This document shows, piece after piece, positions 1,789 through 25,650 of a stretch of 28,527 nt of DNA. Under the pieces are notes generated by a model. It saw only the letters and a list, made by a program, of their open reading frames with translations, did no database searches and was not told the DNA's origin. Each line of letters opens with the position of its first letter. Position 1 is the stretch's first letter. The position numbers and the translations under genes were made by a program. The stretch is from a virus, in IMG/VR virus record IMGVR_UViG_3300010149_000102, positions 1 to 28,527 of that record; one strand, 5' to 3'.

Positions 1789-2631
1789 ATGGCATTTGAC
1801 TTAGGTAGTAAATTTACTAAAAAAGCAAATCAGTTTACATCAGATCAAACTGGCAAACTATTGCCGGGCAATGATCCTATTAGTAAAATTGGTCGCGGCA
1901 TATTAGATGCTAGTGGCAATAGACTCGTGCAAGCAGGATTAGAGTTTGCTGGTGCAAACATTCCAGGATTTGACAACATTGTAAATGCTACGTTTAGAGA
2001 TAATGATATACGTGTTAGACTTGGTATGAGTCCATCTAGCGGTCCTTTGTTATACAAAGATCCTAGTAATAGAATTTTAGAACCGTTAATTGATACTGGT
2101 GGTATATTATTTCCTTATACACCTACTATAACTGTAAGTCATACAGCAGGATACACAGGTGCTCAGCCTGCGCATAGTAATTATATACAGCATAGTTACG
2201 GAAGTAGTAGTGTTGATAGTATAACACTTGATGCATATTTCACAGCAAATACTGCTGATGAAGCAAGGTATGTGTTTGCTGTATTGCATTTTTTACGAAG
2301 TGCTTACAAAATGTTTTATGGTGCAGACAGGCTTAGAGGAACACCACCTCCGGTACTTAGATTAAGTGGATACGGTCCTTTTAACTATAATAGTGTACCG
2401 TGTGTATTAACTAATTTTACTGAGATTATGCCATCAGATAGAGACTTTATAGAAGTGCCGCTTGCAACAGCACCTGACGCGGCTACAAAAACTATGATAC
2501 CAACTTACTTGCCAGTAACACTTGCGTTGCTTCCAATTTATAGTAAGAATCAAATTGGTAACTTTAGTTTAGAAAGTTTTGCTAAAGGAGACCTAATAGG
2601 TAATCCTAGCAAAGGTGGAGGATTTGTATAA
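1789..2631 (+). CDS. gp48/gp54-type baseplate tail-tube end protein
   Basis: A 280-residue structural protein expected at the interface between central baseplate hub and tail tube, where T4 gp48 and gp54 cap the hub and start tube polymerisation. The centre (about 108-215) shows the conserved marine T4-like pattern that I associate with this family: FPYTPTITVSHTAGY, then a Y-x-H/S-x-D sheet, the helix DEARYVFAVLHFLRSAYKMF, and PPPVLRLSGYGPF with a tube-like beta region ending in DFIEVPL. The first 75 residues are Gly-rich without a recognised domain. I cannot tell from sequence whether it plays the gp48 or the gp54 role; only one such gene is in view. The start is supported by AAGGA eight bases upstream and a perfect late promoter. 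Its TAA overlaps the next ATG as TAATG, which implies coupled translation with the gp53-like gene. Confidence 0.75.
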   Translation: MAFDLGSKFTKKANQFTSDQTGKLLPGNDPISKIGRGILDASGNRLVQAGLEFAGANIPGFDNIVNATFRDNDIRVRLGMSPSSGPLLYKDPSNRILEPLIDTGGILFPYTPTITVSHTAGYTGAQPAHSNYIQHSYGSSSVDSITLDAYFTANTADEARYVFAVLHFLRSAYKMFYGADRLRGTPPPVLRLSGYGPFNYNSVPCVLTNFTEIMPSDRDFIEVPLATAPDAATKTMIPTYLPVTLALLPIYSKNQIGNFSLESFAKGDLIGNPSKGGGFV

Positions 2632-2933
2632 TGGATGTTACTTACAGAAATGATAGCCCGTATGCAAATACCTTGGGATATAGTTATTATTTAGACATAC
2701 TAACAGCTCGACATATCCCAGCATACCGAGATGATGTATTACACACACTAACAACGGTGCACCAGCATAGACCTGATCTACTTGCATATGACTTGTATAA
2801 GAATAGTAATCTTTGGTGGGTATTCCAGGCTCGTAATCCAAACGCATTTGAAGATCCGATTTGGGATTTTCGTGCAGGTGTTAAATTTTATATTCCAAAG
2901 AAAGATACAATCGAAACAGCGTTAGGAATCTAA
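2631..2933 (+). CDS. 53: gp53-like baseplate wedge protein (minimal, LysM-like)
   Basis: A 100-residue protein resembling the core of T4 gp53, which links neighbouring wedges around the baseplate hub. Visible features are the pattern HRPDLLAYDLYKNSNLWWVF (residues 46-65), then an NP-x-x-F-x-DPIWDF stretch and a closing FYIPKK. This is the beta-alpha-alpha-beta layout of a LysM-type fold: the protein must dwell on a slot (D-LA-DLY), pass an aromatic helix (NLWWVF) and end in an ILIP-like strand. T4 gp53 is about twice as long, so the extra helical parts are missing here. A strong ribosome binding site GGAGG (2617-2621) precedes the ATG, which overlaps the previous stop. The next gene starts one base after its own stop. 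Assignment rests on the LysM-like motif plus position beside tube, hub and spike genes. Confidence 0.7.
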   Translation: MDVTYRNDSPYANTLGYSYYLDILTARHIPAYRDDVLHTLTTVHQHRPDLLAYDLYKNSNLWWVFQARNPNAFEDPIWDFRAGVKFYIPKKDTIETALGI

Positions 2934-8409: not shown

Positions 8410-8778
8410 ATGGCAGTAGCAACATACAAGGGTTTTGATACAGTAACTAATAATTTTGGTGGCAGTAAATTAACTGACACTGATTTAATTAAGAGAGATA
8501 TTTTAAATCATTTTGCAATTACCAAAGGCGAAAAACTCATGAATGCTGAATTTGGTACAAGTTTGCGTGACCTAATTATGGATCCTCTCACTGAAGAGTC
8601 TAAAGCAACAGTAATACAAGAAGTTAACACAGTAATTAATACCGATCCTAGAGTACGCAGTGAAGGTATTACACTTGATGAGTATGAAAACGGATTACAA
8701 ATTGAAATGACTGTGAGATATGTTCTTACTAATCAAGTTGAGAACTTAATGGTGCGATTCGACAGATCAAACACATAG
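8410..8778 (+). CDS. 25: gp25-like baseplate wedge / sheath initiator
   Basis: A 122-residue protein of the gp25 family, which sits at the wedge inner face and starts sheath polymerisation by mimicking the sheath handshake strands. The family signature is clear: a helix with DLIKRDILNHFAITKGEKLM, then EFGTSLRDLIMDPLTEE (residues 47-63, including the conserved EFG-x-x-x-x-L), a long helix with DPRV and two C-terminal strands (LQIEMTVRYVLTNQ, ENLMVRFDR). Length is close to T4 gp25 (132). AGGGAG seven bases upstream supports the ATG at 8410. It lies between the spike and gp6 genes, its expected partners; in T4 gene 25 is in a different cluster from gene 6. Confidence 0.95.
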   Translation: MAVATYKGFDTVTNNFGGSKLTDTDLIKRDILNHFAITKGEKLMNAEFGTSLRDLIMDPLTEESKATVIQEVNTVINTDPRVRSEGITLDEYENGLQIEMTVRYVLTNQVENLMVRFDRSNT

Positions 8779-8842: not shown

Positions 8843-11800
8843 ATGACTGCTAGTACAAGACAATCAAATTTATTTGCTGCTGAGGATTGGAAGAAAGTCT
8901 ACGAGACATTCCGTGAAGCAGACTTTCAGAGCTACGACTTTGAAACCATTCGTAAAAGTATGGTTGACTATTTACGTAACTATTACCCAGAAGATTTTAA
9001 CGATTTCATCGAATCTAGTGAATATATTGCACTTATTGATCTAATCTCATTTTTAGGTCAAAGTTTAAGTTTTCGTGCAGACTTAAATGCTCGTGAAAAT
9101 TTCCTAGAAACAGCAGAACGCAGAGACAGCATTTTACGCTTGGCTCGCATGCTGAACTACTATCCAAAGCGTCAACAAATTGCTCGTGGATTGATTAAAG
9201 TTTTATCTGCACAAACAACAGAAGAAATTACAGATAGCAATGGCAACAGTTTGCGCGATACAGAAATTTCTTGGAATGATCCTACTAATAGTGATTTTTT
9301 AGAACAATTTACAACAATTATTAATAGTGCGCTAGTAAGTACACAGCAGTTTGGTAATCCTTCTTCTCAAACACAAGTAGGCGGTATTAATATTGACGAA
9401 TATCAGATTAAAATTAGCGGTGGAACAATTCCGATTTATGATTTTAAAAGTGATGTAGGCGCACAAAACCTTGACTTTGAGCTAGTTAAAGGAACATACA
9501 GTGGAACAGATTATCTATATGAAGTAGCACCACAACCAAGTAATACAACTAACATTCTTTATCGTAATGATAATAAAGGCTTTAGTAGTGCTAATAACGG
9601 ATTTTTCTTTTACTTTAAGCAAGGAAACTTGCAAAGTGCAGACTTTAGTATTGACGAAAAACTACCAAATCGTACAGTTGAAATAGACATTAATAATATT
9701 GATAATAACGATGTTTGGTTATATCAACTTGACGATGCAGGAAATGAAACTACACTCTGGGATAAAGTACCTGCTATTTCAGGTAACAATGTTATCTACA
9801 ATAGCCTAAGCACTAAAAATAAAAATCTATTTACAGTACGCAGTCGTGCAAATGATCAAATTAGTTTAGTATTTGGCGATGATGTATTCTCAAATATCCC
9901 AACAGGAAACTTCCGTGTTTATTTCCGTACAGGTGCAGGCACAACATATAAAATTAGTCCAGATGATATGCAAAACTTACAAATTGTAATTCCATATCTA
10001 AGTCATGCTGATCAAATTGAAAATTTAACTTTAAGTTTAAGTCTACAAAGCACAGTAGCAAATGCTAGTGGTAGAGAAAATCTACGCGATATTAAACTTA
10101 AAGCACAGCAACAATACTATACTCAGGATCGTATGATTACTGGAGAAGATTATCAAATTCTTCCTTATACTAAATTTAGTAATATTATTAAAAGTAAAGC
10201 AATCAACAGAAGTGCTAGTGGAATTAGTCGATACTTAGACGTTCGCGATACAACAGGCAAGTATAGCAGTACAAATATTGTCGCAGAAGATGGAATATTA
10301 TATCGTACAGAAGACCTACAACAGTTTCAGTTTACTTTTGTTACTGATAGTGATATTAGCAATACAATAAGTCAGCAAGTAGAAAAAAATATTCTAAGAA
10401 ATGATAGTTTACATTTTTATTTAAAAAATTATGGCGGGATTGATGTAACAAACTTAAATGCTAGTTGGAATCTAACAACAACTACTAGTGGTAAGTGTAC
10501 TGGTTACTTTAAGAATGATGTAAGTGCTGCACTTAAAATTGGAAGTTTTGCAAGTAGTAATTTAAAATATGCAAAAGTTGGTGCATTGTTAAAGTTCACA
10601 GCACCAGCTGGAAAAGTATTTGATGTAAACAATAATCTTATTACTGGCACTAGCGGAACTCTTAATACTAGAGATTATATATGGGCAAGTGCTACAAACA
10701 TAGTAACCGATGGTACTAATCAAGGTGTTGGTAATTTAGATACAGGCGTTGGTCCAGTTACACTTAGTGAAGTTATTCCAAGTGATGCAGTTTTAGATCA
10801 AGTTATTGCACCATGGAATACAACTATTTCAAGTGATGTGAGATCAGCTATCATACAAGCAATTGGTGATTACAAAACATTTGGATTGCGCTACGACAGA
10901 GATACCCAAGAATGGGCAATAATTAATTCTCTAGACTTAAATCAAAGCAGTACATTTAGTTTAAGTTATGCTGGAAATACAAACAACACTGGATTAGATA
11001 ACAGTTGGTTCTTTAAGTTTACAAATGATGGAAGTACCTATACAACTAACTATCGTAATACAAGTTATGTATTTGAAAGTAAATTAGAGACACGTTTCTA
11101 TTTTGATAGCGATTTAAAAATCTTTGATCCACGCACAGGTAAAACTATTAAAGATAAGATTAATATTCTTAAGGTAAACTCATTACCAGACAGTAATAGT
11201 AGTTTAGCAGTTGACTACGCAATGCAGATTGATGACGTAATCACAGAAACAGATGGATACACATTAACTAATAGAATTAAAGTTACTTTTCCAGATATTG
11301 ATAATGATGGTGTTGTTGATAATCCTGAAGTATTTGATATTGTTGTTGCACCTGATGTAAGCAGTGAAAGTAAAATTGTTTTTTATCAAACAACTACAAG
11401 TAACGGCGGTTATTTAACTTATACACCAGTCGAGTCTACAACCATTGAACAGCGTTACACTACCCAAGGTGCAATTAATGAAGTTCTTGCGCAGTTTACT
11501 AGTGGTCAAGTATTTTATGCAAGCGCAGACGACAAGTTTTACATCTTGAGTATAAGTGGTGCTAATGTCAAAAGTATAGCACAAACTACTGATTATGTCA
11601 AGCGCACTGGACGTAGTGATTTATTATTCCAGTATACACATAACAGTCCGAACAACAGACGTATTGATCCAAGTCCAAGTAATATTATTGATATGTTCTT
11701 GCTTACTAAGCAGTATGATACTGATTATAGAAACTATGTAACCGATATTACTGGAAGTATTACTAAGCCAGTTAAACCAACTACAAATGATCTGCGTGAT

Positions 11801-12370
11801 CAGTTTGGTAGTCTAGAACAATATAAAAGTGTAAGTGATACAATTATTTTTAACAGTGTAAGTTACAGACCTTTGTTTGGTGATAAAGCAGATGAAGAAT
11901 TACAAGCAACATTCAAAGTTGTAAAAAATACTAGTACACTTATAAGTGACAGTGAAATTAAAGAAAAAGTAGTAGGTGCAATCAATGATTACTTTGCAAT
12001 CGAAAATTGGGACTTTAGTGACAGTTTCTACTTTAGTGAATTAGCGGCATATCTTTATACTACTCTTTCACCTGATGTACTAAGTGTTGTAATTGTTCCA
12101 AAACTTTCAACTAGTAACTTTGGTAGTTTATTTCAAATACAAAGTCAAAGAAATGAAATTTTAATTAGTGCCGCAACAGTAAATGATATTGATGTTATTG
12201 ATGTTATTACTGCAAGTAGTCTACAAGCCAATGGCAATGTTATTAATACTACAACTACAAATCTTTCATCAGAAAGTGCTAGTGCAAATAGTGCTAGCAC
12301 GTCTGTAAACACAGCAACAAACACAGTAACAACAACTACAACTACAACTACCGGGGGGTATAGTTACTAA
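8843..12370 (+). CDS. 6: gp6-like baseplate wedge protein, enlarged
   Basis: Wedge protein whose dimers form the continuous ring that holds the baseplate together. The N-terminus has the gp6 family pattern: residues about 20-125 with FETIRKSMVDYLRNYYPEDF, EYIALIDLISFLGQSLSFR, ENFLETAERRDSILRLARML and NYYPK. The C-terminal conserved domain (1037-1124) has SEIKEKVVGAINDYF, NWDFSDSFYFSELAAYLYTT, LSVVIVPK and ISAATVNDIDVIDVI. These are the two ends of the gp6 core. Between them lie several hundred residues of beta-rich Asn/Thr/Ser-rich sequence, so the protein is 1175 residues against 660 in T4. The last 50 residues are Ser/Thr-rich low complexity with a T-octamer, encoded by CAACTA repeats (12333-12350) and a G6 run. 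TAGGA nine bases upstream supports this ATG; another ATG at 8835 opens only a three-codon frame. Its TAA overlaps the next ATG as TAATG. Confidence 0.88.
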   Translation: MTASTRQSNLFAAEDWKKVYETFREADFQSYDFETIRKSMVDYLRNYYPEDFNDFIESSEYIALIDLISFLGQSLSFRADLNARENFLETAERRDSILRLARMLNYYPKRQQIARGLIKVLSAQTTEEITDSNGNSLRDTEISWNDPTNSDFLEQFTTIINSALVSTQQFGNPSSQTQVGGINIDEYQIKISGGTIPIYDFKSDVGAQNLDFELVKGTYSGTDYLYEVAPQPSNTTNILYRNDNKGFSSANNGFFFYFKQGNLQSADFSIDEKLPNRTVEIDINNIDNNDVWLYQLDDAGNETTLWDKVPAISGNNVIYNSLSTKNKNLFTVRSRANDQISLVFGDDVFSNIPTGNFRVYFRTGAGTTYKISPDDMQNLQIVIPYLSHADQIENLTLSLSLQSTVANASGRENLRDIKLKAQQQYYTQDRMITGEDYQILPYTKFSNIIKSKAINRSASGISRYLDVRDTTGKYSSTNIVAEDGILYRTEDLQQFQFTFVTDSDISNTISQQVEKNILRNDSLHFYLKNYGGIDVTNLNASWNLTTTTSGKCTGYFKNDVSAALKIGSFASSNLKYAKVGALLKFTAPAGKVFDVNNNLITGTSGTLNTRDYIWASATNIVTDGTNQGVGNLDTGVGPVTLSEVIPSDAVLDQVIAPWNTTISSDVRSAIIQAIGDYKTFGLRYDRDTQEWAIINSLDLNQSSTFSLSYAGNTNNTGLDNSWFFKFTNDGSTYTTNYRNTSYVFESKLETRFYFDSDLKIFDPRTGKTIKDKINILKVNSLPDSNSSLAVDYAMQIDDVITETDGYTLTNRIKVTFPDIDNDGVVDNPEVFDIVVAPDVSSESKIVFYQTTTSNGGYLTYTPVESTTIEQRYTTQGAINEVLAQFTSGQVFYASADDKFYILSISGANVKSIAQTTDYVKRTGRSDLLFQYTHNSPNNRRIDPSPSNIIDMFLLTKQYDTDYRNYVTDITGSITKPVKPTTNDLRDQFGSLEQYKSVSDTIIFNSVSYRPLFGDKADEELQATFKVVKNTSTLISDSEIKEKVVGAINDYFAIENWDFSDSFYFSELAAYLYTTLSPDVLSVVIVPKLSTSNFGSLFQIQSQRNEILISAATVNDIDVIDVITASSLQANGNVINTTTTNLSSESASANSASTSVNTATNTVTTTTTTTTGGYSY

Positions 12371-15300
12371 TGGCATTACGTAAAAGCTCAGTACTATTAC
12401 CTGATGTATTTCAGACAGTAAAAAACAATAAGTTCTTAAATGCAACTGTGGATCAGTTAATTAGTGAACCTAATCTACAGCGCATTAATAGTTTTATTGG
12501 ACGTAAGTTTGCTCCAAACTTTTCAGTGGGCGATAGTTATGTTAGTGAAATAGATAGAGACAGACAAAACTATCAACTTGAACCTGCGATTGTATATCGT
12601 TCGCCAAGTAAGCAAGTTGAAAGTTTAACCGGCTATATTGATTTTATTAATCAATTAAAATACAACAATGTTCAAACAACGTCACACAGTGATTTATTTG
12701 AACAAGAATATTACAACTATAGTAGTTTTGTTGACTTTGATAAACTTGTAAACTACGGCGAATACTTTTGGCTTCCTAGTGGCCCGGATAGTGTTCAGGT
12801 GTTTAACAGCATAGTTGATACAGAAAAAGATTTTGATGTGTCAAGACGTACTGTAGCAGGCGTAGATGAATATAGTATTGATTCAAGCGATAATGCAAAT
12901 CCAACTATCATACTTGCTAGAGGCGGCAGTTACACATTTAATGTACAGCAAACAGGTACACCGTTTTGGATTCAAACTGCAACAGGAACTAGTGGCATTA
13001 GTTCACATAGTAAAAATGTTAGCACACGTGAAGTTTTAGGTGTAACAAACAACGGCGAAGATAATGGAACTATTACATTTAATGTTCCTAAAAAAGATGC
13101 ACAAAACGATAAGATCAATGCAACACAATCTGCTAGTCCAGATTTTGCAACAACACTAACTTATAAGCAGCTTCATAATGTTCCTTATAGTGTAGTTGTA
13201 GATTTATATGGCGGCATTGACAGTCAAACTGAGATTGATGGTAAAAGTTTAGTATTTGTTAACACAACTACAGATGAAACAGCATGGGATCAAGGTCAAC
13301 TATTTGATGCATATGGCTTTGACGATGATGATAATCCTTGGGATCAATCTACTACAATTGACATTAGTACAAGATATGATGTTTATAATATTTCAGTAAA
13401 CACGATTGCTGGGGTTGCAACAGTACAACTTACTCAAGGCACAAACTGGCCCAATAAAACAAAAATTAAAGTTAAGCAAGGTACTGCATATGGAAATAGA
13501 GAATTCTTTAAAGATGCTAGTGGATTACCTGAATTAATTCAACCATATACAGCCGGAGCAGATATTCTGTATTACCAAGATGGCACAAATGAAAATCAAT
13601 TTGGCACAATACAACTTGTAGAAATAGATTCTGTTGCTCCTATTAATGTTGAAAATGAAATTCTTGGAAAAGAAAATTATACAAGTACAAATAATGTAAT
13701 TTTTACAAACGGTTTGAAAGTTCAATTCAATAGCGATGTAACTCCAAGCACATATGCAGATAGAGAATATATTGTTGAAGGTGTTGGGCAACCAGGCGGT
13801 ATTGTTTTAGTAGCATATGATCAATTATTGACACCTGAAACATATAGTGTTAGCACTAGTGATGGTTACGATACTGTAGCATATGATGCTGGAGGATGGG
13901 ATGGCACATTAAATAGTCCAACAGAACAAGACTATATTATTATCAATCGTGCTAGTCCAGATCTCAATGCTTGGAGTCGAGGCAATCGTTGGTTCCACAG
14001 AGAAGTAATTGAAGCAACCGCAAAGTACAATGAATATATTGCAAAAGTGGACGACACAGCAAGAGCAAAGCGTCCTATTATCGAATTTCATGCTGGATTA
14101 GAACTTTACAATATGGGAACAAGCAGTGTTAGCCCTGTTACTGTAGTTGATACAACACAAACTGATGCGTTGAGTAATGTTAATGGTACACTAGGATACT
14201 TTGCAGACGGAATTGATCTGCAGAAAGATAACACAGTTATTTTTAGTGCAGACACAGATGAAAACGTAAGAACAAAAATTTATCGTGTTGATTATATTAA
14301 TCAAGATAGTAATACAACAACAGATGAAATTATCAACTTAGTTGAAATTGGAACAGTTGTTGATACAAACTGCATACTAAGCACACTGGGCGCAAATAAT
14401 CAAGGAAAGATGTATTGGTTAAACGGAACAACTTGGACAACTGCACAGCAAAAGACGGCAATTAACCAAGAGCCATTGTTTGACGTACATGATCCAGATC
14501 ATGTAAGTTTTAGTGATCAAACAAAATATCCAAGTAGTAACTTTGTTGGTAGCAAACTGTTTAGTTATAAGCGTAACAATGATGCAAGTCCAGATAGTGT
14601 TCTAAATTTTGGATTGACATATGAAAACTTTAGCACTATCGGTGATATTGTTTTTGAAAATAACTTTGATTTGCAAGAGTTTCAGTATACGAAAAGCACA
14701 GGTAATACTAATGTAATTGTACGTAGTGGACATGCACATACATTTGATAGCGCAGGCAACAGATCATTATTAAATGGCTGGACTAAAACTATTGAAAATA
14801 GTGTACAGTACCAAATTGTTAGTTATAATGTAAACAGTGAGCTTTACAGTTTTGAAATTGGAGCAAGTGTTGATACAACAAAGATCAGACAACCGTTGCA
14901 AGTTTTTGTTAACGGAGAATTTAAGTATCCAAGTACATATACACATTTAGTACAAAGCGATAGAGAATACGTAGTATTTTCTACTGCACTTACTGTTGAT
15001 GATGTTGTTACTATAAAGTTTATTAGTAATACTAAAGCACAAAATAGTTACTATCAGGTACCTGACAATCTAGAGAACAATGCTAGTAATGCTACATTTA
15101 CGTCTCTTACACTAGGTCAACTTAGAAATCATTCAGTTGTAACTAGTCGACAGATTAAATCATTTAATGGAACTTCTCCAGGAAAAAGTAATATACGTGA
15201 TTTAAATAGTCGTGCATATCCAGGTAATATTCTTCAGCACAGTGCTGGTATGACATTGCCTATGTATTTGCTATCTGATAATAATACAAATACAATTAAA

Positions 15301-18300
15301 AGTATAAATTATGTCAAAAATGAATATTCTAAATTTAAAAATAATTTTATTGAAAATATTGATCGTTTAGATATAGATTTAACTGATCCTGTTTCGAGTG
15401 TTGATAAGATATTATTGCATATGGCAGGAAAGAAAACAAGTGCGTTTCCGTTTTACTATAGCGACATGGTGCCATGGGGCGAACAAAAAACGCAAGTTAG
15501 TTATACAATAGACGATGTTACAGAAACTGAATTTGAATTTACTACACAATTTGATTTAACATCTATTAGTAACCAAAGTGTTCTTGTTTATCATACTGTA
15601 AATTCAACTAGCACTAAGACTTTGCTTGTTGAAGGTAAAGATTATATATTCGATACTACAGAAGCAAAAGTTACACTAGTAACCGACAACGCAACTGAAT
15701 TAGCACTAATTGGTATAGCAGTCGATGATACTATTTCTATTATTGAATACGCAGATACCAATGGCAGCTTTGTACCTCCAACTCCAACTAAGTTAGGTCT
15801 TTGGGGAAAGTATCTTCCAAGCAAGTACACAGATAATACCTATACACAAAGCCAAACTGTTGTACAAGGACATGATGGTAGCATATGGGTAGGCTGGGGT
15901 GACTTACGCGATGACGTCTTGTTGGAATTTGAAAAGAGAATATTCAATAATATTAAGACACAGTATAACAAAGATCTATTTGATTTCTCAACAGTAATAC
16001 CTGGATTTTACCGTAGTACTGTTAATGACTTTAGTGAAGCAAATAATATTATCAGAAGTTACTTTGGCGAATGGTCATTAAAAAACAAAGTAAAAGTGCA
16101 ACCTAATACTACAGTAGATGCTGACAACTTGTTTACTTGGAATTATCGTAACGGTGCAAATAAATTAGATGGCTCTCGCTTACCTGGTTACTGGAGAGGT
16201 ATATACAAATGGTTATACGATACTGATACTCCTCATACAACACCATGGGAAATGTTTGGTATTTCAGAAAAGCCAAATTGGTGGAACTTGCGTTATGGTG
16301 CAGCTCCTTATACTAGTGGAAACACTGTATTGTGGGAAGATCTTAGAGATGGCAAGATATACAGCGATGCAGTTGGCACAGATTTTACTATAGATACCAA
16401 CAGGGTTCGTAGTTCTCTATTATCAATCATCCCAGTTGATGAGCAAGGAAATCTAAGAGCTCCTGCGGATTTTTTAACTACTGGTTCGAATCAAACTAAC
16501 ATTGGCGATACTTGGGCATTCAGCGATAATAGTCCAGTTGAAGCAGCATGGCGCCGCAGTAGTGAATATCCATTTGTATTACAAATCTTGGCAGCAAACT
16601 TAAAACCTGCTGCTTACGGCACATTGATGTTTGATACTTGCATGTATCAAAAAGACAAAGCATATGATCAAATACTGCAAAAGGGAAAAAGTTATAGACC
16701 AGGCATTGCAGATTATAAAATGCATGGTCAAACATTAAACGATGGCACTGTAATTAGAGTCGAGGGTTATAATCAATTCATTAGTGAGTATGTAAAGTAC
16801 ACCGGCTATAGTGTTAACGATACAATAACACGCATTAATAATCTACAAGTTAACCTATGTTATAGTATGGCTGGATTTACAGACAAACAGTATCTAAAAG
16901 TTGTTGCAGAAAGTGTTACTCCAAGCAGTACCAGTGAAAACATTTTTGTACCTGACGAAGATATATCAATTTATCTTAAAAAGAGCTTACCACTAGAGCG
17001 TGTAGTTTATAGTGGCGTTCAGATTATTAGAAGACAAAATGGTTACGAAATACAAGGATATGATGTAGCCAATCCTTTCTTTAAAATTGTACCAAGTTTA
17101 GATCATGGTACACCTAATAGATACATTGTAGGTGAAACAACTTACTTTGAATATACTGATTTTGAAAATAAAATTATCAATATACCATACGGAACAATTA
17201 TTAGAAGTAAACAACAAGTTTTCGACTTCTTGGTAAGTTATCAAAGATATCTACTTAGTAGAGGATTTGTATTTGATGGCACAACAGGCACTGGTGAAAA
17301 AAATGATTTTGTAAGTGCCGGCAAAGAATTTGCATTTTGGACAGATCAAAACTGGTCTGACAACAGTGTTATTGTACTAAGTCCTTATAGCAACGTACTT
17401 ACTCTTAATAGAGAATTTGCAACAGTTGATAATTTGAAATTGACCGGCGGGCTAAAAGACGCAAACGGAAGTGCTATTAATCCTAAGTATTATGATGTCA
17501 GTAGACAAGATAATATTGTTGAGATTAGAATTGATACAGAAAATACACAACTATACAGCGTACAGTTAGATCCTATACAATATGAACATGCTATCATATT
17601 CAGTAATACTACAATCTTTAATGATGTAATTTATCAGCCTGAACTAGGAAATAGACACAATCGTTTAAAATTAATCGGTAGTAAAAGTGGAGACTGGAAC
17701 GGCACTCAGCATGCACCGGGATTCTTTATTAGCGAAGATACTATTAATCTTTGGGAAGCATATACAGATTACAAAAAAGGTGATATTGTTAGTTACCAAA
17801 ATAAAACTTATGTAGCGAAGCAAGAGATTTCGAGTAGTAAAGTTTTTGATTATTCAAATTGGAATATAGCAGATAATATTAAGTCTGGACTTATTAAAAA
17901 CCTAAGCAATAAAGCAGGACAGTTTAAAGACTTTTTTGAAATTGACAACTTGAATCTTGAAGATGGAGTTGACCATTTAGGCAAAGGCATTATTGGATTT
18001 AACAATAAAGACTATTTGCAAGGATTGGGACTTGACGATGTTAGCCAAGTTAAGTTTTATCAAGGTATGCTAAAACAAAAAGGCACTAGCACTAGTATTA
18101 ATAAACTTATTGATGCAGAGCTAACAAACCTAGACCAAGAAATTGATTATTTTGAAGAGTGGGCATTCCGTGTTGGTGAATATGGAAGTATTGATAGTAA
18201 TCAGGTTATTGAAACAATTATACCAGAAGATAAAGCAACGAACAATCCGTTCTTATTACATTTCCACGCTGATGGAGAAGAAAATATTTCAGGCGATCAT

Positions 18301-21300
18301 TATCATGTACAAGGTAAAGATTTGTATAAAAAGCCTAACAATTATAATGGTGATGTGTTTAGTCTCAGAGACGCAAACAGTTCAACGTTGGGCGATTTAG
18401 ATAGTGCTGGCTATGCAAGATTAGACGATGTTGACTTTACAGTTCTAAGTAGCGATGATCTAGTACAACTGAGTAGTAGACTAAGTGAAATAGGCAAAGG
18501 TAAAAAGATTTGGGTTGCTAGTGATACAACTAATACTTGGGGAATCCGAAGAGTTGATGAAATGCCAAGTGTAGTAACTGGTGTTGAAGATACTGGTAAC
18601 GGATACTTAATTTATACAACAGACAAAAATCATGGACTTGATAAAGGCGATTACGTAATTGTCAGAGCTCAACAGCCAATTGGCAAAGTTGCAAAAATTG
18701 ATAGTATTGTGAGTGGTAATAAGTTTGCAGTTGTAGACGAAGTAACACAAGTAGAAATTTCCGATGTTAGTTTGCCTATGTATAAGTTAACAAGTGTTAG
18801 GTTTGCACAGCCGAGTGATTTGAGTACATACACTCCAATGAACGGCTGGGAAAGACAAGAAGCAGTTTGGGTAGATAAAGATCAGTCTAACAAGTGGAGC
18901 GTACTACAGAATCAGAGACCATGGACTACAACAGGTACAAAAACAAGCGATGGTATTACTGCTGGTGATGCACACGGATCTAGTATTTCGATTAACGCAA
19001 GTAGTACACTTGCTCTAGTCGGTGCACCTGAAAGCGGTACAGGATTAATTACTCCATATGTAAGAGGTAGTGACGGAGCATTACTAGAAGGCAACACTGT
19101 TACTGTTACCACAATTGGAGATAGTGTTGATAGTTTTGGTGCTAGTGTAGCAACAGGAACAGATTATGTTGCAGTAGGTGCACCGGACACAGAAAGCAGT
19201 AAAGGTGCAGTGTTTACTTACTATGTTGATAGTACAGGAACATTTAATAGACGCCCGAGTATTAGACCTAATGGATTAGGTACTAGTGCTAAGTTTGGAA
19301 ATGACATTGCTATGAGCGGCAATGGCAGACATTTATTTGTTAGCGCACCTGGTGTTAATACAATTTATGCTTATACACTAGTTGAAATACCAACATCAAG
19401 TGTAACGAGCTTTACTATTACAACCACTGGTAGTGCAACTTATACACTAAACTTTACACCTATTAGTATACAAACTCTTAATATTGTAGACGAAAATGGT
19501 AAAGTATATTTGCCAAACAAGGACTTTACCCTAAGCGGAGCAGATGTTACATTCACAAGTACACCGGCTAGTAGTTTACAAATTGTTGTTAGACAAGAAG
19601 ATTATTTTGCACAAGTAAATTCATTTAGCGGACACGATTCTATGGCTTCTGATAACTTTGGTTATAGTATTGACTGTGATTACCATGGACGCTATGTTGT
19701 TGCAGGTGCTCCTAATGCAAGTGTAGTAGGCACTGACAGTGGTATTTTATCAAATGCAGGTGAGGCATATGTATTTGCACAAGTTGTAGAACGTTTCAAT
19801 GGCACCGGTACAACAAGTGCATTTACAACTGATGCAACACTACAAACAAAAATATTTGTAGAAGTAGATGGAGTATTACAAACTGAAACTGATAATCCAG
19901 ATATCCCTACTGACAACGATGGATCAAGTGCTGGATTTTATACTCGTTCTAGCAATACTATTACATTCAAATATATTCCTGCAAACGGCGCAGAGATTGT
20001 AGTATACACAGGAACCTTTGCTCAAAAGCAAAAACTAGATCAAAACTTTACTGGGGAAACTGTTAACGCAGACGAACAGTTTGGCTATAGTGTTGCAATA
20101 GACAGCCAAGGTACAATGGTTGCTATAGGTTCGCCCGGCGAAGATGAAACTAATCCAAACACAGGTAGTGTGTTCATTTTCCAAGATAGCGGCAAGAACT
20201 ACGGAAGTATTACAACTAATGCAGTGCATACCCAAACACTTAATGATGTGTTTTATCTAGATGATCATAAAATTACAGTTAGTGAAACAGGCAATAATCC
20301 AACTGGTATTGCTAGTGATATTAATAATGCAAATGTACCAGGAGTTAGCGCAAGCATATCTGGAACAGGACAAATTGTTATAACAAGTACTAACATTGAG
20401 AGTTTAAACAAACTTACTATAAATCCAGGCACTGGACAATTGTTTGTAAGAGATGAAATTTTTGAGGCATATGTATATACTCAAAAGATAAGTCATCCAA
20501 ACGGAAGTGAAAACGAAAACTTTGGAAACGCAGTAGCATTTGATAAGCATGTTGGTATAGGTGTAAACTCTTTACCGGGTACTAGAAATCTTGTTATAAG
20601 CAGTGACAAAGCAAGCACAAAACTTTCAGTAGGATTTGATATTGAAACAAATTCTAACAGTGAAAACTATACAGATGCAACAACAACATTTGATGCAAAA
20701 GGAACAACATTCACTGACAAGAAAGTACAAAGCGGCGCTGCTTATGTATACGAACTACTAGACGCTAGTACGCCAACAATTAATAATCCTGACAAGATGG
20801 TATTCGGACAACAACTGTCAACTACTAATATTAGCGAACTAGATCAATTCGGTAAAGCAATTGCATTTAGTGATAGCAGAATTATTGTTGGTGCTCCTAA
20901 AGACGATATTGTTAGAGGAAGTAGTACATTAGTCGATAGTGGCAGTGTGTATGAATTTGAAAATTCTGAACGTACAAGCAACTGGCACATATTACGTAAC
21001 GAGGGTGATAGAGTTGATGTAACTCAAATAAATCGTGTAGCACTTTATAATAAAAAAGATGGAGAAGTAAAAGTATTCCTAGACTATATTGATCCAGCCA
21101 AAGGAAAAATCGCTGGAGCTGCAAATGCAGAACTTAGTTACATAAGCCATCAAGATCCTGCTTTATACGACAACAACTTATGGAGTTACAAATATAAAAA
21201 CAGACTATGGTGGGATACAAGCACAGTACATTATCTAAATGCAGAGCAAGGTGATCTTGATTTCCGTACTAATTATTGGTCAGAGTATTTCCCTGGAAGT

Positions 21301-24300
21301 AGCATTGATGTATATGAATGGATTGAAAGTGATGTTGTTCCTGAAGAATATACAGGTGAAGGTACAGTAAAAGATGCAACTCAATTTACAGTAGCAAATG
21401 TATATGAAAGCAAAACAGATAGTACAAAAACACGCTACTACTTCTGGGTGAAAGATATTGCAAGTATCCCAGCTGAAGCAGAATTTAGAACAATCAGTGC
21501 AGATACTGTTCGTGCATTGATCGAAGATCCGAAAGCAACTGGTTTGCCGTATGTTGCATTTTTAGATAAAGATGCAATAAACTTGTATAACTGTAAGAAT
21601 TATTTTTCAGATAACGACACAGTTCTAAGTGTTAACTACGATGTTGTTAAGAATGAAGGAATATTGCATAGTGAGTTTGAGTTATATGGTAGAGGAAACG
21701 TCGATCAAGATATTCCTACTAGAATGTATACAAAACTTGTAGATAGTTTAGCAGGTAGTGATAGTGTCGGAAATATAGTACCGGATCCGTTCTTAAGTGA
21801 TATTGAAAAATATGGTGTGCTAACACAGCCTAGACAAAGTATGTTTGTTAATCGTGCTAGTGCCCTTAAAGTATTAGTACAATATTGTAACAACATATTC
21901 TTGTTACAGCCGTTTGCAAGAACTAGCAACTTTAAAAACTTATTGAGTAGTGAAAGTATCCCTACTATTAATAGTGGAAAATATAACGAAAGTGTTAACA
22001 CAGTAGCAGAACGTGACTTCTTGAATACTGCTATACTTTCAACAGGGTATAAAGTTTTAGTTCTTGAAGATGAAAATAACAACAACTACTGGACTATATA
22101 TTCATTGAATGCAGATAAAACATGGTTGTTATCTAATATTCAAAGTTATAACACAGAAGATTATTGGAATTATAAAACTTATTATGCTACCGGATATGAC
22201 AGCACAACTGTACCGAAATATCAAGTAACACTCGAAGCAGATTTGCAAACACTTAGCGATGCAGTTGAAGGTGATGTTGTTAAAGTAACTAGCAATGACG
22301 AAGGTAACTTCAGTATGTTCTGCTTAAAATCAACAGGCTGGCAAGAAGTTATCATTGAAAACGGCACAATAGAATTTAATGATAGTTTGTACAACTTTGC
22401 AAATAGCAATACTAATTTTGAGTCAACTGGTTTTGATAATGACGGATTTGATTTTGGATCATTTGATAAAGTACCAGTACAAGAAATAAGAATGATAGTA
22501 GACGCACTAAAGAATCAATTATTCATTAACAATTATGAAATAAACATGAATGAATTATTTTTCCGCTTAATGGAGTATGCAGTAAGTGAAAATGACTTTA
22601 CACAAGATTGGTTATTCAAGAGTTCGTTTATTACAGTTGCACACAAGATACGCAGTTTAGATCAATATAAGACATTCAAGTATGATAATACAGAATTTAT
22701 TGAAAACTTTATCAACGAAGTTAAACCTTATAAGTCTAAGATAAGAGAATATGTAAGCAAGTATGATAAAACAGAAACGTTCCAGGGCGATACTACAGAC
22801 TTTGATATACATGCATTCTATGACGAAGATCTAAAGTTTTTCCGTAAACCTAGTGGCGATTATGAAGGCGATAGTATTAAGCAGTCACAAGGGCTAAACA
22901 AACCTTGGTACGATAATCATGGCTACAAATTAGATAGTATTCAAATTGTAAGTGCAGGAACAGGTTATATTATTGATCCTACAGTAACTATTAGTGCTCC
23001 ACAATTAGCAGGTGGCGTACAAGCAACAGCAACAGCAAAAACAAATGGTGATGCAATTGTTAGTATTACAATGACAAACAAAGGCAGCGGCTATACTAGT
23101 AATCCAACAGTAACAATTACTGGCAGCGGAACTGGTGCAATGACTAGCCCAAGAATTGTTAACAGTACTGTTCGTAGTTTCGACACAACTATTAAGTTTG
23201 ATCGTATTACATATAGCAGTGACATCAAAGATTGGACAGCAAATACAAGTTATAGTTTAGGAGATGTTGTTGCATATCAAAATACTGTAACTAAGAAACA
23301 AGAAGTTTATACAGTAAATAGTTCGTTCACTAGTAACTCGACATTTAGTGTAGAAGATTCTAATGGTACTACAGTGATGTCTGTTAAACTTGATGCAGAC
23401 TTTACTAATACAGCAGATAGAATTGCAGCATACTATTATCCAACTAGTGGAATGCTAGGAGATGATCTAGAGCAACTACAAAAAGGCACTGGTTACTTAG
23501 GAAACAATGTTCAAGGTGCAGGCTTTGATCAGAATCCTGGCTTTGATAGTGGAAACTTTGACACAGTAGCATTTGATAATTTTGAAATTGATAGCGATGG
23601 TTTATTGGTTCTAGCAGGACTAGATACTAATATTACTAGTTCGTTCACAGACCTAGCACTAGGCACACGCCCAGAAGATATTAATATTGATGGTGCAGGT
23701 TTTGTTGACACTTACAACAGTCATGCACCTGAAGAATTGATACCTGGTAGAGTATATGATACATTAGACATGGAAGTATACACGCATCCTAGTAATGACT
23801 ATGAAGGTGATGGAAATGCATCTGCAATAAAATATACTAGTTTCTCTGATAGCACAGAATCATTGCATGATTTCCAATACGGCGATCCTACAAAAGCAAA
23901 AGATGATTTTCAATATCTAATTGTGTATAAAAATGCACAACGTCAGTATAACTTTACTGTAAACTATACTAGTAAAACTGTTATATTGCCAAACGAACTT
24001 AGTGCAACTGACATATTACATGTGTATGCATACAGTGCAACTGGCGAAAAGATGGTAGGCGAATACACATACACAGGTGATGGTAGTACAGCAGCATTTA
24101 CGTTATCTAATATACCAGATCTCACTAAACAAACATTGGTGTTTGTTGATGGAGTTGAAACAAGCGTAACAGTTGGTGATACAGATGGCAGATCAAATAT
24201 AACATTTTCAACAGCACCAGACAATGGCGCACATATTCATGTATTTGTGTTTAACCAGGCTGCTACAAGAACAGCACCAAGTAGATTAAAGTTACAGACA

Positions 24301-25614
24301 ACGACGTTAACAGCAAATACATATACCTATGCGCTAGATAATACAGTTGAATATGCACAACCATATGGCGCAAATACTGTTGTCGAAATTGATGACGTTA
24401 GATTACGTCCGGCGAATAGTAAGTATCATGCAGGTGATGGAAGTACAGTACAGTTTGCAATATCTACAACAGCAAACGAAACTAATATTATCAATACAAA
24501 TGATATAGGTGTTGCAGTTATATCAAAAGCAGATGGAACAACATTAAATGCAATTGCTACAGTTGATTATAATGTAGTAGCAGGAACTAATTATGTTACA
24601 ATGACTACTGCACCAGCAGACGGAGACACAGTAATTGTTTATAATCGTGCAGACGCAGAATATATTATTAGTGGTGATGGAACTGAAATTACTATAAACA
24701 AAGCAGTTAGTTTTTCAAGTTCAAGTGTAATGCGTGTCAATACATTTGCCAACCATGATCCAATGCGTATACAAACAAAAGTATTTGTTGGTCAAGGTAC
24801 AGGATCAACAACGATCATAGACGAGTTTGATACAGTTGGCTTTGATAGCGCAGGATTTGATCGTAGTGCAGTAGTAGGTACTACTGGTTCTTATACACTT
24901 GACAGAGCAGTAGCAAATGTAAATAATTTCTGGATAACAGTAGATGGCACAAGGTTGCATCCAGGTGATTATATTACTAACGGTAGTACAATCGTAATGA
25001 GTAATCTAGTACAAGCAACTATTAGCGGCACAAGTATTGTTACAATAACACATATAAGTGAAAATGCAATTCAGCCAAGTACTGGATTTAGAATATTCAA
25101 AGATATGAATGATAATTTTGAATATTTGAGATTATGTAAAAATTCTACAACAACAGTAGCAACAGTTGTTAATCCAGCAGACACAAAAATATATGTTGAT
25201 GATGTATCTGTACTTCCATATATTACTCCAGACAGCGAGTATCCAGGTGTTGTGTTTATTTCCGGTGAAAGAATTACTTATTGGGAAGTTAATCTAGCAG
25301 AAAATTACATTACTGGTTTGCGTAGAGGCACTGCTGGTACAAGTTTAGAGTCAACTATAAATCCTGGATTCTTAGTAATCGACGGAAGTAAAGATCAACA
25401 TTTGCCAGCATCAGATACACATACTAAAACATGGTATGACACAGGCACAGGAAGTGCTGCTGATGGACTAGGATTGCAACAAAGTCATACAACAAATGCC
25501 AACTTCTTAAAAGAATGTGAAGCAGAAGTACCTAATTACATACTAGAACTTAATGAAAAACTTTATCTAGTAGATGGATATGTTGAAGATGATTACATTG
25601 AGGAACTGAAATAA
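12370..25614 (+). CDS. Giant baseplate/tail structural protein with embedded beta-propeller (4414 residues)
   Basis: A single uninterrupted frame of roughly 480 kDa, translationally coupled to gp6 (TAATG). It lies where T4 carries genes 7 and 8, so it may be an expanded wedge protein; I do not recognise gp7 by sequence. It is a chain of modules: N-terminal conserved region (1-150, with SLTGYIDFINQLKY and NYGEYFWLP); a strand-rich cupredoxin-like stretch (185-241); conserved GHDGSIWVGWGDLRDD and a Trp-rich region with WRGIYKWLYDTD, TPWEMFG and LWEDL (about 1165-1330); an aromatic chitin-binding-like module (1795-1831); a seven-bladed FG-GAP-type propeller (2199-2872); an Ala/Tyr-rich conserved region (2880-3500); twin GSGY repeats (3530 and 3572); a second aromatic module (3622-3654); three FD clusters; and several GDGST-type modules (3898-4215). 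No signal peptide, membrane segment or enzyme motif was seen. Structural role is well supported by position; details are inference. Confidence 0.75.
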   Translation: MALRKSSVLLPDVFQTVKNNKFLNATVDQLISEPNLQRINSFIGRKFAPNFSVGDSYVSEIDRDRQNYQLEPAIVYRSPSKQVESLTGYIDFINQLKYNNVQTTSHSDLFEQEYYNYSSFVDFDKLVNYGEYFWLPSGPDSVQVFNSIVDTEKDFDVSRRTVAGVDEYSIDSSDNANPTIILARGGSYTFNVQQTGTPFWIQTATGTSGISSHSKNVSTREVLGVTNNGEDNGTITFNVPKKDAQNDKINATQSASPDFATTLTYKQLHNVPYSVVVDLYGGIDSQTEIDGKSLVFVNTTTDETAWDQGQLFDAYGFDDDDNPWDQSTTIDISTRYDVYNISVNTIAGVATVQLTQGTNWPNKTKIKVKQGTAYGNREFFKDASGLPELIQPYTAGADILYYQDGTNENQFGTIQLVEIDSVAPINVENEILGKENYTSTNNVIFTNGLKVQFNSDVTPSTYADREYIVEGVGQPGGIVLVAYDQLLTPETYSVSTSDGYDTVAYDAGGWDGTLNSPTEQDYIIINRASPDLNAWSRGNRWFHREVIEATAKYNEYIAKVDDTARAKRPIIEFHAGLELYNMGTSSVSPVTVVDTTQTDALSNVNGTLGYFADGIDLQKDNTVIFSADTDENVRTKIYRVDYINQDSNTTTDEIINLVEIGTVVDTNCILSTLGANNQGKMYWLNGTTWTTAQQKTAINQEPLFDVHDPDHVSFSDQTKYPSSNFVGSKLFSYKRNNDASPDSVLNFGLTYENFSTIGDIVFENNFDLQEFQYTKSTGNTNVIVRSGHAHTFDSAGNRSLLNGWTKTIENSVQYQIVSYNVNSELYSFEIGASVDTTKIRQPLQVFVNGEFKYPSTYTHLVQSDREYVVFSTALTVDDVVTIKFISNTKAQNSYYQVPDNLENNASNATFTSLTLGQLRNHSVVTSRQIKSFNGTSPGKSNIRDLNSRAYPGNILQHSAGMTLPMYLLSDNNTNTIKSINYVKNEYSKFKNNFIENIDRLDIDLTDPVSSVDKILLHMAGKKTSAFPFYYSDMVPWGEQKTQVSYTIDDVTETEFEFTTQFDLTSISNQSVLVYHTVNSTSTKTLLVEGKDYIFDTTEAKVTLVTDNATELALIGIAVDDTISIIEYADTNGSFVPPTPTKLGLWGKYLPSKYTDNTYTQSQTVVQGHDGSIWVGWGDLRDDVLLEFEKRIFNNIKTQYNKDLFDFSTVIPGFYRSTVNDFSEANNIIRSYFGEWSLKNKVKVQPNTTVDADNLFTWNYRNGANKLDGSRLPGYWRGIYKWLYDTDTPHTTPWEMFGISEKPNWWNLRYGAAPYTSGNTVLWEDLRDGKIYSDAVGTDFTIDTNRVRSSLLSIIPVDEQGNLRAPADFLTTGSNQTNIGDTWAFSDNSPVEAAWRRSSEYPFVLQILAANLKPAAYGTLMFDTCMYQKDKAYDQILQKGKSYRPGIADYKMHGQTLNDGTVIRVEGYNQFISEYVKYTGYSVNDTITRINNLQVNLCYSMAGFTDKQYLKVVAESVTPSSTSENIFVPDEDISIYLKKSLPLERVVYSGVQIIRRQNGYEIQGYDVANPFFKIVPSLDHGTPNRYIVGETTYFEYTDFENKIINIPYGTIIRSKQQVFDFLVSYQRYLLSRGFVFDGTTGTGEKNDFVSAGKEFAFWTDQNWSDNSVIVLSPYSNVLTLNREFATVDNLKLTGGLKDANGSAINPKYYDVSRQDNIVEIRIDTENTQLYSVQLDPIQYEHAIIFSNTTIFNDVIYQPELGNRHNRLKLIGSKSGDWNGTQHAPGFFISEDTINLWEAYTDYKKGDIVSYQNKTYVAKQEISSSKVFDYSNWNIADNIKSGLIKNLSNKAGQFKDFFEIDNLNLEDGVDHLGKGIIGFNNKDYLQGLGLDDVSQVKFYQGMLKQKGTSTSINKLIDAELTNLDQEIDYFEEWAFRVGEYGSIDSNQVIETIIPEDKATNNPFLLHFHADGEENISGDHYHVQGKDLYKKPNNYNGDVFSLRDANSSTLGDLDSAGYARLDDVDFTVLSSDDLVQLSSRLSEIGKGKKIWVASDTTNTWGIRRVDEMPSVVTGVEDTGNGYLIYTTDKNHGLDKGDYVIVRAQQPIGKVAKIDSIVSGNKFAVVDEVTQVEISDVSLPMYKLTSVRFAQPSDLSTYTPMNGWERQEAVWVDKDQSNKWSVLQNQRPWTTTGTKTSDGITAGDAHGSSISINASSTLALVGAPESGTGLITPYVRGSDGALLEGNTVTVTTIGDSVDSFGASVATGTDYVAVGAPDTESSKGAVFTYYVDSTGTFNRRPSIRPNGLGTSAKFGNDIAMSGNGRHLFVSAPGVNTIYAYTLVEIPTSSVTSFTITTTGSATYTLNFTPISIQTLNIVDENGKVYLPNKDFTLSGADVTFTSTPASSLQIVVRQEDYFAQVNSFSGHDSMASDNFGYSIDCDYHGRYVVAGAPNASVVGTDSGILSNAGEAYVFAQVVERFNGTGTTSAFTTDATLQTKIFVEVDGVLQTETDNPDIPTDNDGSSAGFYTRSSNTITFKYIPANGAEIVVYTGTFAQKQKLDQNFTGETVNADEQFGYSVAIDSQGTMVAIGSPGEDETNPNTGSVFIFQDSGKNYGSITTNAVHTQTLNDVFYLDDHKITVSETGNNPTGIASDINNANVPGVSASISGTGQIVITSTNIESLNKLTINPGTGQLFVRDEIFEAYVYTQKISHPNGSENENFGNAVAFDKHVGIGVNSLPGTRNLVISSDKASTKLSVGFDIETNSNSENYTDATTTFDAKGTTFTDKKVQSGAAYVYELLDASTPTINNPDKMVFGQQLSTTNISELDQFGKAIAFSDSRIIVGAPKDDIVRGSSTLVDSGSVYEFENSERTSNWHILRNEGDRVDVTQINRVALYNKKDGEVKVFLDYIDPAKGKIAGAANAELSYISHQDPALYDNNLWSYKYKNRLWWDTSTVHYLNAEQGDLDFRTNYWSEYFPGSSIDVYEWIESDVVPEEYTGEGTVKDATQFTVANVYESKTDSTKTRYYFWVKDIASIPAEAEFRTISADTVRALIEDPKATGLPYVAFLDKDAINLYNCKNYFSDNDTVLSVNYDVVKNEGILHSEFELYGRGNVDQDIPTRMYTKLVDSLAGSDSVGNIVPDPFLSDIEKYGVLTQPRQSMFVNRASALKVLVQYCNNIFLLQPFARTSNFKNLLSSESIPTINSGKYNESVNTVAERDFLNTAILSTGYKVLVLEDENNNNYWTIYSLNADKTWLLSNIQSYNTEDYWNYKTYYATGYDSTTVPKYQVTLEADLQTLSDAVEGDVVKVTSNDEGNFSMFCLKSTGWQEVIIENGTIEFNDSLYNFANSNTNFESTGFDNDGFDFGSFDKVPVQEIRMIVDALKNQLFINNYEINMNELFFRLMEYAVSENDFTQDWLFKSSFITVAHKIRSLDQYKTFKYDNTEFIENFINEVKPYKSKIREYVSKYDKTETFQGDTTDFDIHAFYDEDLKFFRKPSGDYEGDSIKQSQGLNKPWYDNHGYKLDSIQIVSAGTGYIIDPTVTISAPQLAGGVQATATAKTNGDAIVSITMTNKGSGYTSNPTVTITGSGTGAMTSPRIVNSTVRSFDTTIKFDRITYSSDIKDWTANTSYSLGDVVAYQNTVTKKQEVYTVNSSFTSNSTFSVEDSNGTTVMSVKLDADFTNTADRIAAYYYPTSGMLGDDLEQLQKGTGYLGNNVQGAGFDQNPGFDSGNFDTVAFDNFEIDSDGLLVLAGLDTNITSSFTDLALGTRPEDINIDGAGFVDTYNSHAPEELIPGRVYDTLDMEVYTHPSNDYEGDGNASAIKYTSFSDSTESLHDFQYGDPTKAKDDFQYLIVYKNAQRQYNFTVNYTSKTVILPNELSATDILHVYAYSATGEKMVGEYTYTGDGSTAAFTLSNIPDLTKQTLVFVDGVETSVTVGDTDGRSNITFSTAPDNGAHIHVFVFNQAATRTAPSRLKLQTTTLTANTYTYALDNTVEYAQPYGANTVVEIDDVRLRPANSKYHAGDGSTVQFAISTTANETNIINTNDIGVAVISKADGTTLNAIATVDYNVVAGTNYVTMTTAPADGDTVIVYNRADAEYIISGDGTEITINKAVSFSSSSVMRVNTFANHDPMRIQTKVFVGQGTGSTTIIDEFDTVGFDSAGFDRSAVVGTTGSYTLDRAVANVNNFWITVDGTRLHPGDYITNGSTIVMSNLVQATISGTSIVTITHISENAIQPSTGFRIFKDMNDNFEYLRLCKNSTTTVATVVNPADTKIYVDDVSVLPYITPDSEYPGVVFISGERITYWEVNLAENYITGLRRGTAGTSLESTINPGFLVIDGSKDQHLPASDTHTKTWYDTGTGSAADGLGLQQSHTTNANFLKECEAEVPNYILELNEKLYLVDGYVEDDYIEELK
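12922..13092 (+). other. Cupredoxin-like beta segment in the giant protein
   Basis: Residues 185-241 read GGSYTFNV, GTPFWIQT, then EVLGVTNNGEDNGTITFNVP. This resembles the marine cupredoxin-like pattern in which G-x-YTF-V, HPF-I and GVTNNG-x-x-x-GTITF-VP precede a Cys/His copper site. Here the first His is replaced by T and no C-x-x-x-x-H follows, so it would be a metal-free structural copy. Confidence 0.4.
17752..17862 (+). other. Chitin-binding-like aromatic module 1 in the giant protein
   Basis: Residues 1795-1831 show W-x3-TDYKKGDIVSYQNKTYVA followed by W after the usual gap. This is the W...Y-x-x-GD-V-x-Y-x-x-x-x-Y-x-A...W layout of CBM5/12-type modules. In that family the aromatics stack on sugar rings. 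Sugar binding here is inferred only. Confidence 0.5.
18964..20990 (+). other. Seven FG-GAP-like blades forming a probable beta-propeller
   Basis: Within residues 2199-2872 seven units start with an HG/FG motif at about 2202, 2256, 2309, 2430, 2571, 2718 and 2827. Each continues with alternating strands and, in most, a VGAP/SAP/AGAP/GSP turn: LALVGAPES, YVAVGAPDT, LFVSAPGV, YVVAGAPNA, MVAIGSPGE, a degenerate sixth, and IIVGAPKDD. Several end with an A/G-x-VY-x-F/Y strand (GEAYVFAQ, GSVFIFQ, AAYVYEL, GSVYEFE). Spacing is 50-55 residues for the first blades and 110-147 where inserts occur. Integrin-type FG-GAP propellers have seven such blades. Confidence 0.75.
19420..20514 (+). other. Beta-rich insert modules between propeller blades 3-4, 4-5 and 5-6
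   Basis: Extra sequence of about 60-100 residues separates the later blades. Between 3 and 4 (residues about 2351-2411) and between 4 and 5 (about 2478-2550) it resembles the GDGST-type module found near the C-terminus (G-T/D-G-x-T-x-F...VDG/ENG...I-F-x-x-xP-A-x-x-x-I-VV). Between 5 and 6 it reads LDDHKITVSETG, then INNANVPGVSASISGTGQIV and NPGTGQ, a different tail-fibre-like repeat. Confidence 0.55.
22957..23118 (+). repeat. Twin G-x-GY-x-x-x-PTVTI repeats
   Basis: GTGYIIDPTVTI (residue 3530) and GSGYTSNPTVTI (residue 3572) recur at a 42-residue period, each preceded by an I-x-x-x-x-x-G strand. Similar GSGYT-x-PTVTI repeats are common in marine phage fibres and bacterial surface proteins. 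They indicate a small beta-solenoid or paired beta-sandwich. Confidence 0.65.
23233..23331 (+). other. Chitin-binding-like aromatic module 2 in the giant protein
   Basis: Residues 3622-3654 read W-TANTSYSLGDVVAYQN, then a short loop and EVYTVNSSF. The W...Y-x-x-GD-V-Y...VY layout matches module 1 and the CBM5/12-type pattern. No closing Trp was seen, so it may be degenerate. Confidence 0.45.
23521..23589 (+). repeat. Phe-Asp cluster, best of three in the giant protein
   Basis: GFDQNPGFDSGNFDTVAFDNF starts at residue 3718 (one residue pair omitted at its left). Related clusters are GFDNDGFDFGSFDKV at residue 3354 (22429-22473) and FDTVGFDSAGFDRS at about residue 4154 (24829-24870). They share a (G/N/A)FD unit every five to eight residues, rich in Asp and Gly, resembling calcium-binding or linker repeats. 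Confidence 0.6.
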
Positions 25615-25650
25615 ATGGTTGATAAATACTTCAACAAGAGGATAGCATAA
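25615..25650 (+). CDS. Possible 11-codon leader peptide between giant gene and fibre gene
   Basis: MVDKYFNKRIA starts one base after the giant gene's stop (TAA-ATG). It has GAGGA ten bases upstream (25600-25604) and ends in a TAA that overlaps the fibre gene ATG as TAATG. It could couple translation of the two large genes. The late promoter lies inside it, so only read-through transcripts would carry it whole. It may be chance. Confidence 0.25.
   Translation: MVDKYFNKRIA
25621..25628 (+). promoter_or_regulatory. Late promoter ahead of the tail-fibre gene (GATAAATA)
   Basis: Seven of eight bases match TATAAATA, with the extended AAATACT. It is flanked by a short inverted repeat GTTGA (25618-25622) and TCAAC (25631-25635). 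Predicted start near 25634-25635, leaving a leader of about 15 bases with AGAGGA (25637-25642) seven bases before the ATG. Confidence 0.7.

Follow-up and report, generated by a model that had tools for sequence, protein, structure and literature searches.

A predicted integrin-type FG-GAP propeller in a slot of a probable baseplate wedge protein from uncultured phages

The question raised by this locus is whether a giant protein encoded among phage baseplate genes contains a seven-bladed propeller of the FG-GAP/integrin type, as proposed in an earlier note on the same DNA, and what such a fold might do there. The window, i.e., the whole stretch analysed, is a viral fragment of 28.5 kb carrying on the forward strand, to which all coordinates below refer, a virion structural gene followed by gp53, a further structural gene, a gp5-like hub, gp25, gp6, the giant and an ORF open at the window end. 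A gp53-like baseplate wedge subunit (2631..2933; phrog_7145, E 6.6e-22), a gp5-like hub/tail lysozyme homologue (5688..8390; phrog_13211, E 1e-24) and gp25-like (8410..8778; phrog_43, E 1.1e-11) and gp6-like (8843..12370; phrog_10646, E 4.8e-291) baseplate wedge subunits thus precede the giant (12370..25614; 4,414 aa), with its start codon overlapping the gp6 homologue's stop. In a profile search, the latter ORF is matched by the virion structural protein family phrog_10938 with 1066 bits, and this match together with the conserved gene order after gp25-gp6, syntenic with PA5oct, GAP32, RaK2 and XaC1, assigns it to that family. Cultured homologues of 3,300-4,550 aa are present in PA5oct, Atu_ph07, Phosso, SCTP-2, Vibrio 2.275, GAP32, RaK2 and XaC1, where they adjoin structural genes and mostly lie directly 3' of a gene annotated as baseplate wedge subunit, and the PA5oct homologue is annotated as a virion protein by mass spectrometry (ESI-MS/MS). 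Gene order and this mass-spectrometry annotation support the baseplate context assumed previously, and the giant is likely located in the baseplate wedge. The ORF 3' of it (25650-28526) is matched by families of structural, tail-fibre and wedge proteins and may encode a fibre attached to the giant.

By following directly on gp6, the giant occupies the place that gp7 takes in the T4 gene order. Each T4 tail has six copies of gp7, a monomeric wedge protein that binds gp8, gp9 and gp10 (PMC3004832), and in phage XM1 the tail spikes are bound by the gp7 orthologue (PMC10457771). Alignment of four giant regions with T4 gp7 by hhalign gave probabilities of 0.2 to 3.3%, i.e., no profile relation. For aa 2886-3576, the conserved stretch adjoining the propeller region, T4 gp7 was not among the fold matches listed and none was above Z 8; fragments of tailspikes matched weakly over about 50 residues (Z 4.7-5.7) and were disregarded. 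Since neither a sequence match nor, for this stretch, a fold match to gp7 was found, the equivalence is one of gene position only. T4 gp7 itself (1,032 aa; L177:6061-9156) has no FG-GAP match in Pfam; its residues ~105-640 are without a Pfam family and include a single Asp-box, SNDKGQTW, at residue 212. As this region may itself be a propeller, and a seven-bladed propeller is known from the periphery of the PhiKZ baseplate, the earlier claim of a T4 wedge devoid of anything comparable is not established.

The seven HG/FG starts reported at residues 2202, 2256, 2309, 2430, 2571, 2718 and 2827 are all exactly there in ORF 12370-25614. Across the whole 4,414-aa protein, a strict FG...GAP pattern recovers six of the seven starts and none in 300 shuffles, and the seven 52-aa blade segments are similar to each other with a z of about 16 versus shuffles. 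These shuffle and pattern nulls were relied on instead of random windows drawn from the giant, where windows can overlap and further repeats are included. In Pfam, FG-GAP_2 (PF14312) is significant at E 5.8e-22, scoring 78 bits for the whole protein and 101 bits for the region (curated cut-off 23), with four blades being individually significant. The older FG-GAP model PF01839 has no match in the window and, among the relatives, matches L010 only, below cut-off. When a profile of 65 aligned rows was compared with PDB sequences, integrin alpha-4, alpha-M and alpha-IIb came first at E values down to 1e-7, so that both profile comparisons agree with the proposed propeller. A search of NCBIfam gave no match.

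The region corresponding to the propeller and its inserts comprises aa 2183-2875 (18916..20994), and at all seven FG positions the glycine is conserved in 60 to 65 of 65 aligned relatives. Blade 1 (18973..19134) begins with the HG at aa 2202, a position showing FG, YG, LG or HG in 65/65 rows, and is followed by blade 2 (19135..19293; FG at aa 2256), where FG-GAP_2 matches at 19117-19221 with 23.1 bits. The earlier note did not mention extra segments, which are inserted in blades 3, 4, 5 and 6. Blade 3 (19294..19656; FG at aa 2309, FG in 57/65 rows) holds a small beta domain at aa ~2339-2406, Ig-like by eye only, and blade 4 (19657..20079; FG at aa 2430, FG-GAP_2 at 19612-19776) another at aa ~2474-2543, while the spacing from blade 4 to blade 5 ranges from 70 to 174 among relatives. 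In blade 5 (20080..20520; FG at aa 2571, FG-GAP_2 at 20050-20181, 35.5 bits) a domain is inserted at aa ~2609-2693. According to the strand order in the AlphaFold2 model, the inserts of blades 3, 4 and 5 sit between strands 3 and 4. Blade 6 (20521..20847; FG at aa 2718, G in 60/65 rows) has a degenerate turn. The VGAP-like turns attributed to most blades need correction here, its 'NSLP' being a window-specific stretch and not a GAP turn; the family-wide turn of this blade is 'LVISS/LVVGS'. Strands 2 and 3 of this blade are separated by a conserved TFDxxxTxF stretch with the consensus TFDxxxTxFDxxxTxFxD. Blade 7 (20848..20994; FG at aa 2827, FG-GAP_2 at 20824-20952, 30.3 bits) completes the series. 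FDxxxFD motifs recur in the giant at aa ~2780, 3355, 3719, 3730 and 4153, the blade 6 copy being the family-conserved one (TFDxxxTxFD). Repeats of the GxGYxxxP type are found at aa 3530 and 3572.

An AlphaFold2 model built with 65 relatives reached a pLDDT of 85 and a pTM of 0.84. The best 50 Foldseek matches listed are all integrin alpha chains, and in structural comparison of the model integrin alphaM is best (Z 37.8, 2.8 Å, 356 residues), the integrin alpha match extending over model residues 160-851. Propeller-only alpha5 chains are aligned end to end (residues 1-452) over 368 residues at 2.9 Å. The prediction is confident and superposes on complete integrin propellers, which supports the fold by the structural check that the earlier note proposed. 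From model and sequence together, it is near certain that aa 2183-2875 form an FG-GAP/integrin alpha-type propeller. That the seven blades close into one ring is very likely, because the best structural matches are integrin alpha propellers and the propeller-only alpha5 chains are covered end to end. A blade model applied to 139 distinct slots of relatives detected blades in 127 of them, at recurrent relative positions, with a maximum of seven and never eight, and gave 589 matches in real slots versus 0 in shuffled or reversed ones; as it was seeded with the seven blades of the window and iterated over the same 139 slots, the informative parts are the ceiling of seven and the null. That the region instead consists of seven separate beta units or an open solenoid, a reading which could invoke the regular spacing being broken by inserted domains, is very improbable in view of this ceiling and of complete integrin propellers superposing on all seven blades at 2.9 Å.

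The propeller is an insertion in a slot between two scaffold strand segments and has been lost or replaced within its uncultured clade. The left slot border is a scaffold strand pair, VWVDKDQSNKWSVLQN (18862..18924), kept in the propeller-less relatives L041 and L078, and the right border, NWHILRNEGDRVDVTQINR (20980..21036), is kept in these two and in L076, likewise propeller-less. In L041, the scaffold pieces 'VWVDVNDNNKHAVYQKYD' and 'GAWGLLHEEQDTVDVGLINK' stand on either side with only about 25 residues between them; in both L041 and L078 the slot is emptied to a short linker with the scaffold frame kept. In L076 (L076:6153-8537), a YHYH domain (PF14240, E 4.5e-29) occupies the slot in place of the propeller. 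FG-GAP_2 was found in the giant of 42/42 uncultured relatives tested, a share that is not a census as these records were picked by similarity to the window, and in 0/8 cultured relatives tested. In a tree of the scaffold flanks, rooted by midpoint, L041/L078 and L076 are nested within the propeller clade, with moderate support for the exact placement of L076, and the cultured phages and L151 fall outside. This topology fits a single gain of the propeller with later losses or replacements.

Slot contents vary further. The slots of L038, L023, L131 and L066 hold several hundred additional residues besides the propeller, which in L023 and L066 include repeats of the GxGYxxxP type, and in the propeller region of L068 (L068:12674-15571) carbohydrate-binding 5/12 modules lie between blades. 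In the window, a carbohydrate-binding module of family 5/12 is located in the giant 5' of the slot (17752..17836; PF02839, E 3.2e-6 on the fragment, above cut-off), and a second, weak copy downstream of the propeller at ~23233-23290. Atu_ph07 and Phosso encode FG-GAP in genes other than the giant. In the Sinorhizobium phage Phosso (L175:2339-22979, corresponding to Phosso 48338-68978), two adjacent unannotated genes of ~3,160 and 3,690 aa account for most of the phage's 42 FG-GAP_2 matches. An early global alignment had placed an Atu_ph07/Phosso propeller in the same slot, which was ruled out by inspection and Pfam; likewise, the SCTP-2 slot appeared LamG-like by eye, which Pfam did not confirm. 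A hint at the host from marine MAG contigs was set aside, since the bins concerned are unrelated and contamination with phage contigs is probable.

Relatives were found by searching with conserved scaffold alignments. A close-relative search of viral contigs with the propeller alone found nothing, because the propeller diverges fast, and its comparison with 50,697 phage records gave no match at 1e-5, with weak or partial matches at looser limits. When comparing the window with its two closest relatives, dN is 0.31-0.33 for blades 1-3 and 0.41-0.44 for blade 4 versus 0.15 for the scaffold after the slot, and the propeller evolves at roughly double the scaffold rate. The fastest-evolving part is the blade 5 insert (dN about 0.50); for the blade 3 and blade 4 inserts, the rate is as low as that of the scaffold. 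As dN is below dS everywhere, with dS saturated or nearly so and propeller dN/dS well below 1, the propeller changes faster yet under purifying selection.

Integrin-type propellers are chiefly familiar from animal adhesion receptors, whose ligand-binding heads they form. For the propeller of the giant, the reading preferred here, to which we give a probability of roughly 0.55, is that of an exchangeable adhesion module carried by the baseplate wedge and serving host-surface recognition. Such recognition is judged most likely because the fold is dispensable, replaceable, faster-evolving and of an adhesion type, with carbohydrate-binding modules in the same protein, and a swappable attachment module is probable because the slot is empty or filled with other domains in related phages. 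In the mechanism we propose, the giant would replace T4 gp7 in the wedge, so that several copies, six if gp7-like, would encircle the baseplate and keep the propellers at a distance from its core. The propeller face and the small inserted domains would then bind a protein or glycan of the host surface, or carry a binding fibre, and the module would be exchanged when the host surface changes. Against this reading, the gp7 equivalence is one of gene position, the propeller dN/dS gives no sign of positive selection for escape, and the downstream gene (25650 onward) with its fibre-like matches could be the true receptor binder.

Second to host recognition, and possible rather than probable, is a docking platform, where the propeller would hold fibres, pins or the neighbouring wedge without contacting the host. 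The binding of gp9, gp10 and gp8 by T4 gp7 (PMC3004832) is in line with this role, as are the scaffold-like rate of the blade 3 and blade 4 inserts, expected of a protein-protein interface, and the conservation of the seven positions across a very diverse clade. However, the blades evolve faster than the scaffold, and the propeller is lost in lineages keeping the scaffold frame and absent in the cultured relatives tested; because of these losses and of the cultured relatives without it, the propeller is not essential to wedge assembly generally. Much less probable is a conformational lock, with propellers of adjacent wedges meeting to hold the baseplate in its pre-contraction state. Domain A of T4 gp7 does swivel by about 45 degrees in the hexagon-to-star change (PMC3004832), but many relatives lack the module, which, like its natural losses, argues against an obligatory part of the trigger. 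Slightly less probable again is a glycan-degrading enzyme, comparable to those tail-spike propellers that act as sialidases or lyases: propellers are described as endosialidases of phage tail spikes in PMC4901313, but the best matches obtained here, integrin alpha and FG-GAP_2, are mostly binding or adhesion folds, and no catalytic motif was identified, short of a systematic motif search.

Returning to the adhesion module, a conserved and replaceable propeller insert in a probable wedge protein points to a possible site of host recognition beyond the tail fibres. More tentatively, and with less confidence than even odds, we suggest that jumbo-type phages of a large uncultured clade carry a swappable integrin-type adhesion head on the central baseplate wedge protein itself, and not on a separate fibre, with host range being partly set by domain exchange in the slot. 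The propeller also provides a sequence marker for this large clade, as no cultured phage in the collection searched has the domain in its giant, and the comparison of slots makes its role testable.

Among known systems, the integrin alpha propeller (alphaM, alpha4, alpha5, alphaV and alphaIIb) is closest, likewise showing seven four-stranded FG-GAP blades, with a full-length structural match at Z 34-38, albeit at only about 17% identity. Domains are inserted in its loops as well (the I domain in some integrins), whereas most inserts of the phage propeller separate strand 3 of a blade from strand 4. The integrin calcium loop D-x-[DN]-x-[DN]-G-x-x-D occurs in 0/139 slots. Unlike integrin alpha with its stalk, membrane segment and beta partner, the phage propeller lies inside a structural protein, and its flanks gave no Pfam match to integrin stalk domains. 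Baseplate propellers as such are already known. PhiKZ gp131C (PDB 4GBF) of a jumbo phage has a seven-bladed propeller at the baseplate periphery with a proposed role in receptor binding, as cited in PMC4901313, but as the C-terminal domain of a different baseplate protein. The receptor-binding protein of Staphylococcus phage phi11 is also a propeller on the baseplate, with a proposed glycan pocket (PMC4901313), but is a separate, trimeric, five-bladed protein of a siphophage. Viral FG-GAP proteins are known, too: integrin-like propellers occur in FG-GAP proteins of algal/mimi-like viruses, the 'hemagglutinin' of Atu_ph07 and H6WG31 of cyanophage S-TIM5, which, as far as annotated, are not within a baseplate wedge protein, and the term FG-GAP is frequent in PMC11467894 on a prasinovirus. 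In the literature searched, no FG-GAP was found in phage baseplates, no FG-GAP propeller in a wedge protein at the gp7 position and no such slot behaviour. T4 gp7 (PDB 5hx2/5iv5) resembles the giant in being a large wedge protein following gp6. The phrog_10938 giants of RaK2, GAP32, PA5oct, Atu_ph07, Phosso and SCTP-2, finally, share with it the gene order and, left and right of the slot, a homologous scaffold, whereas the slot itself holds a short linker or unrelated domains.
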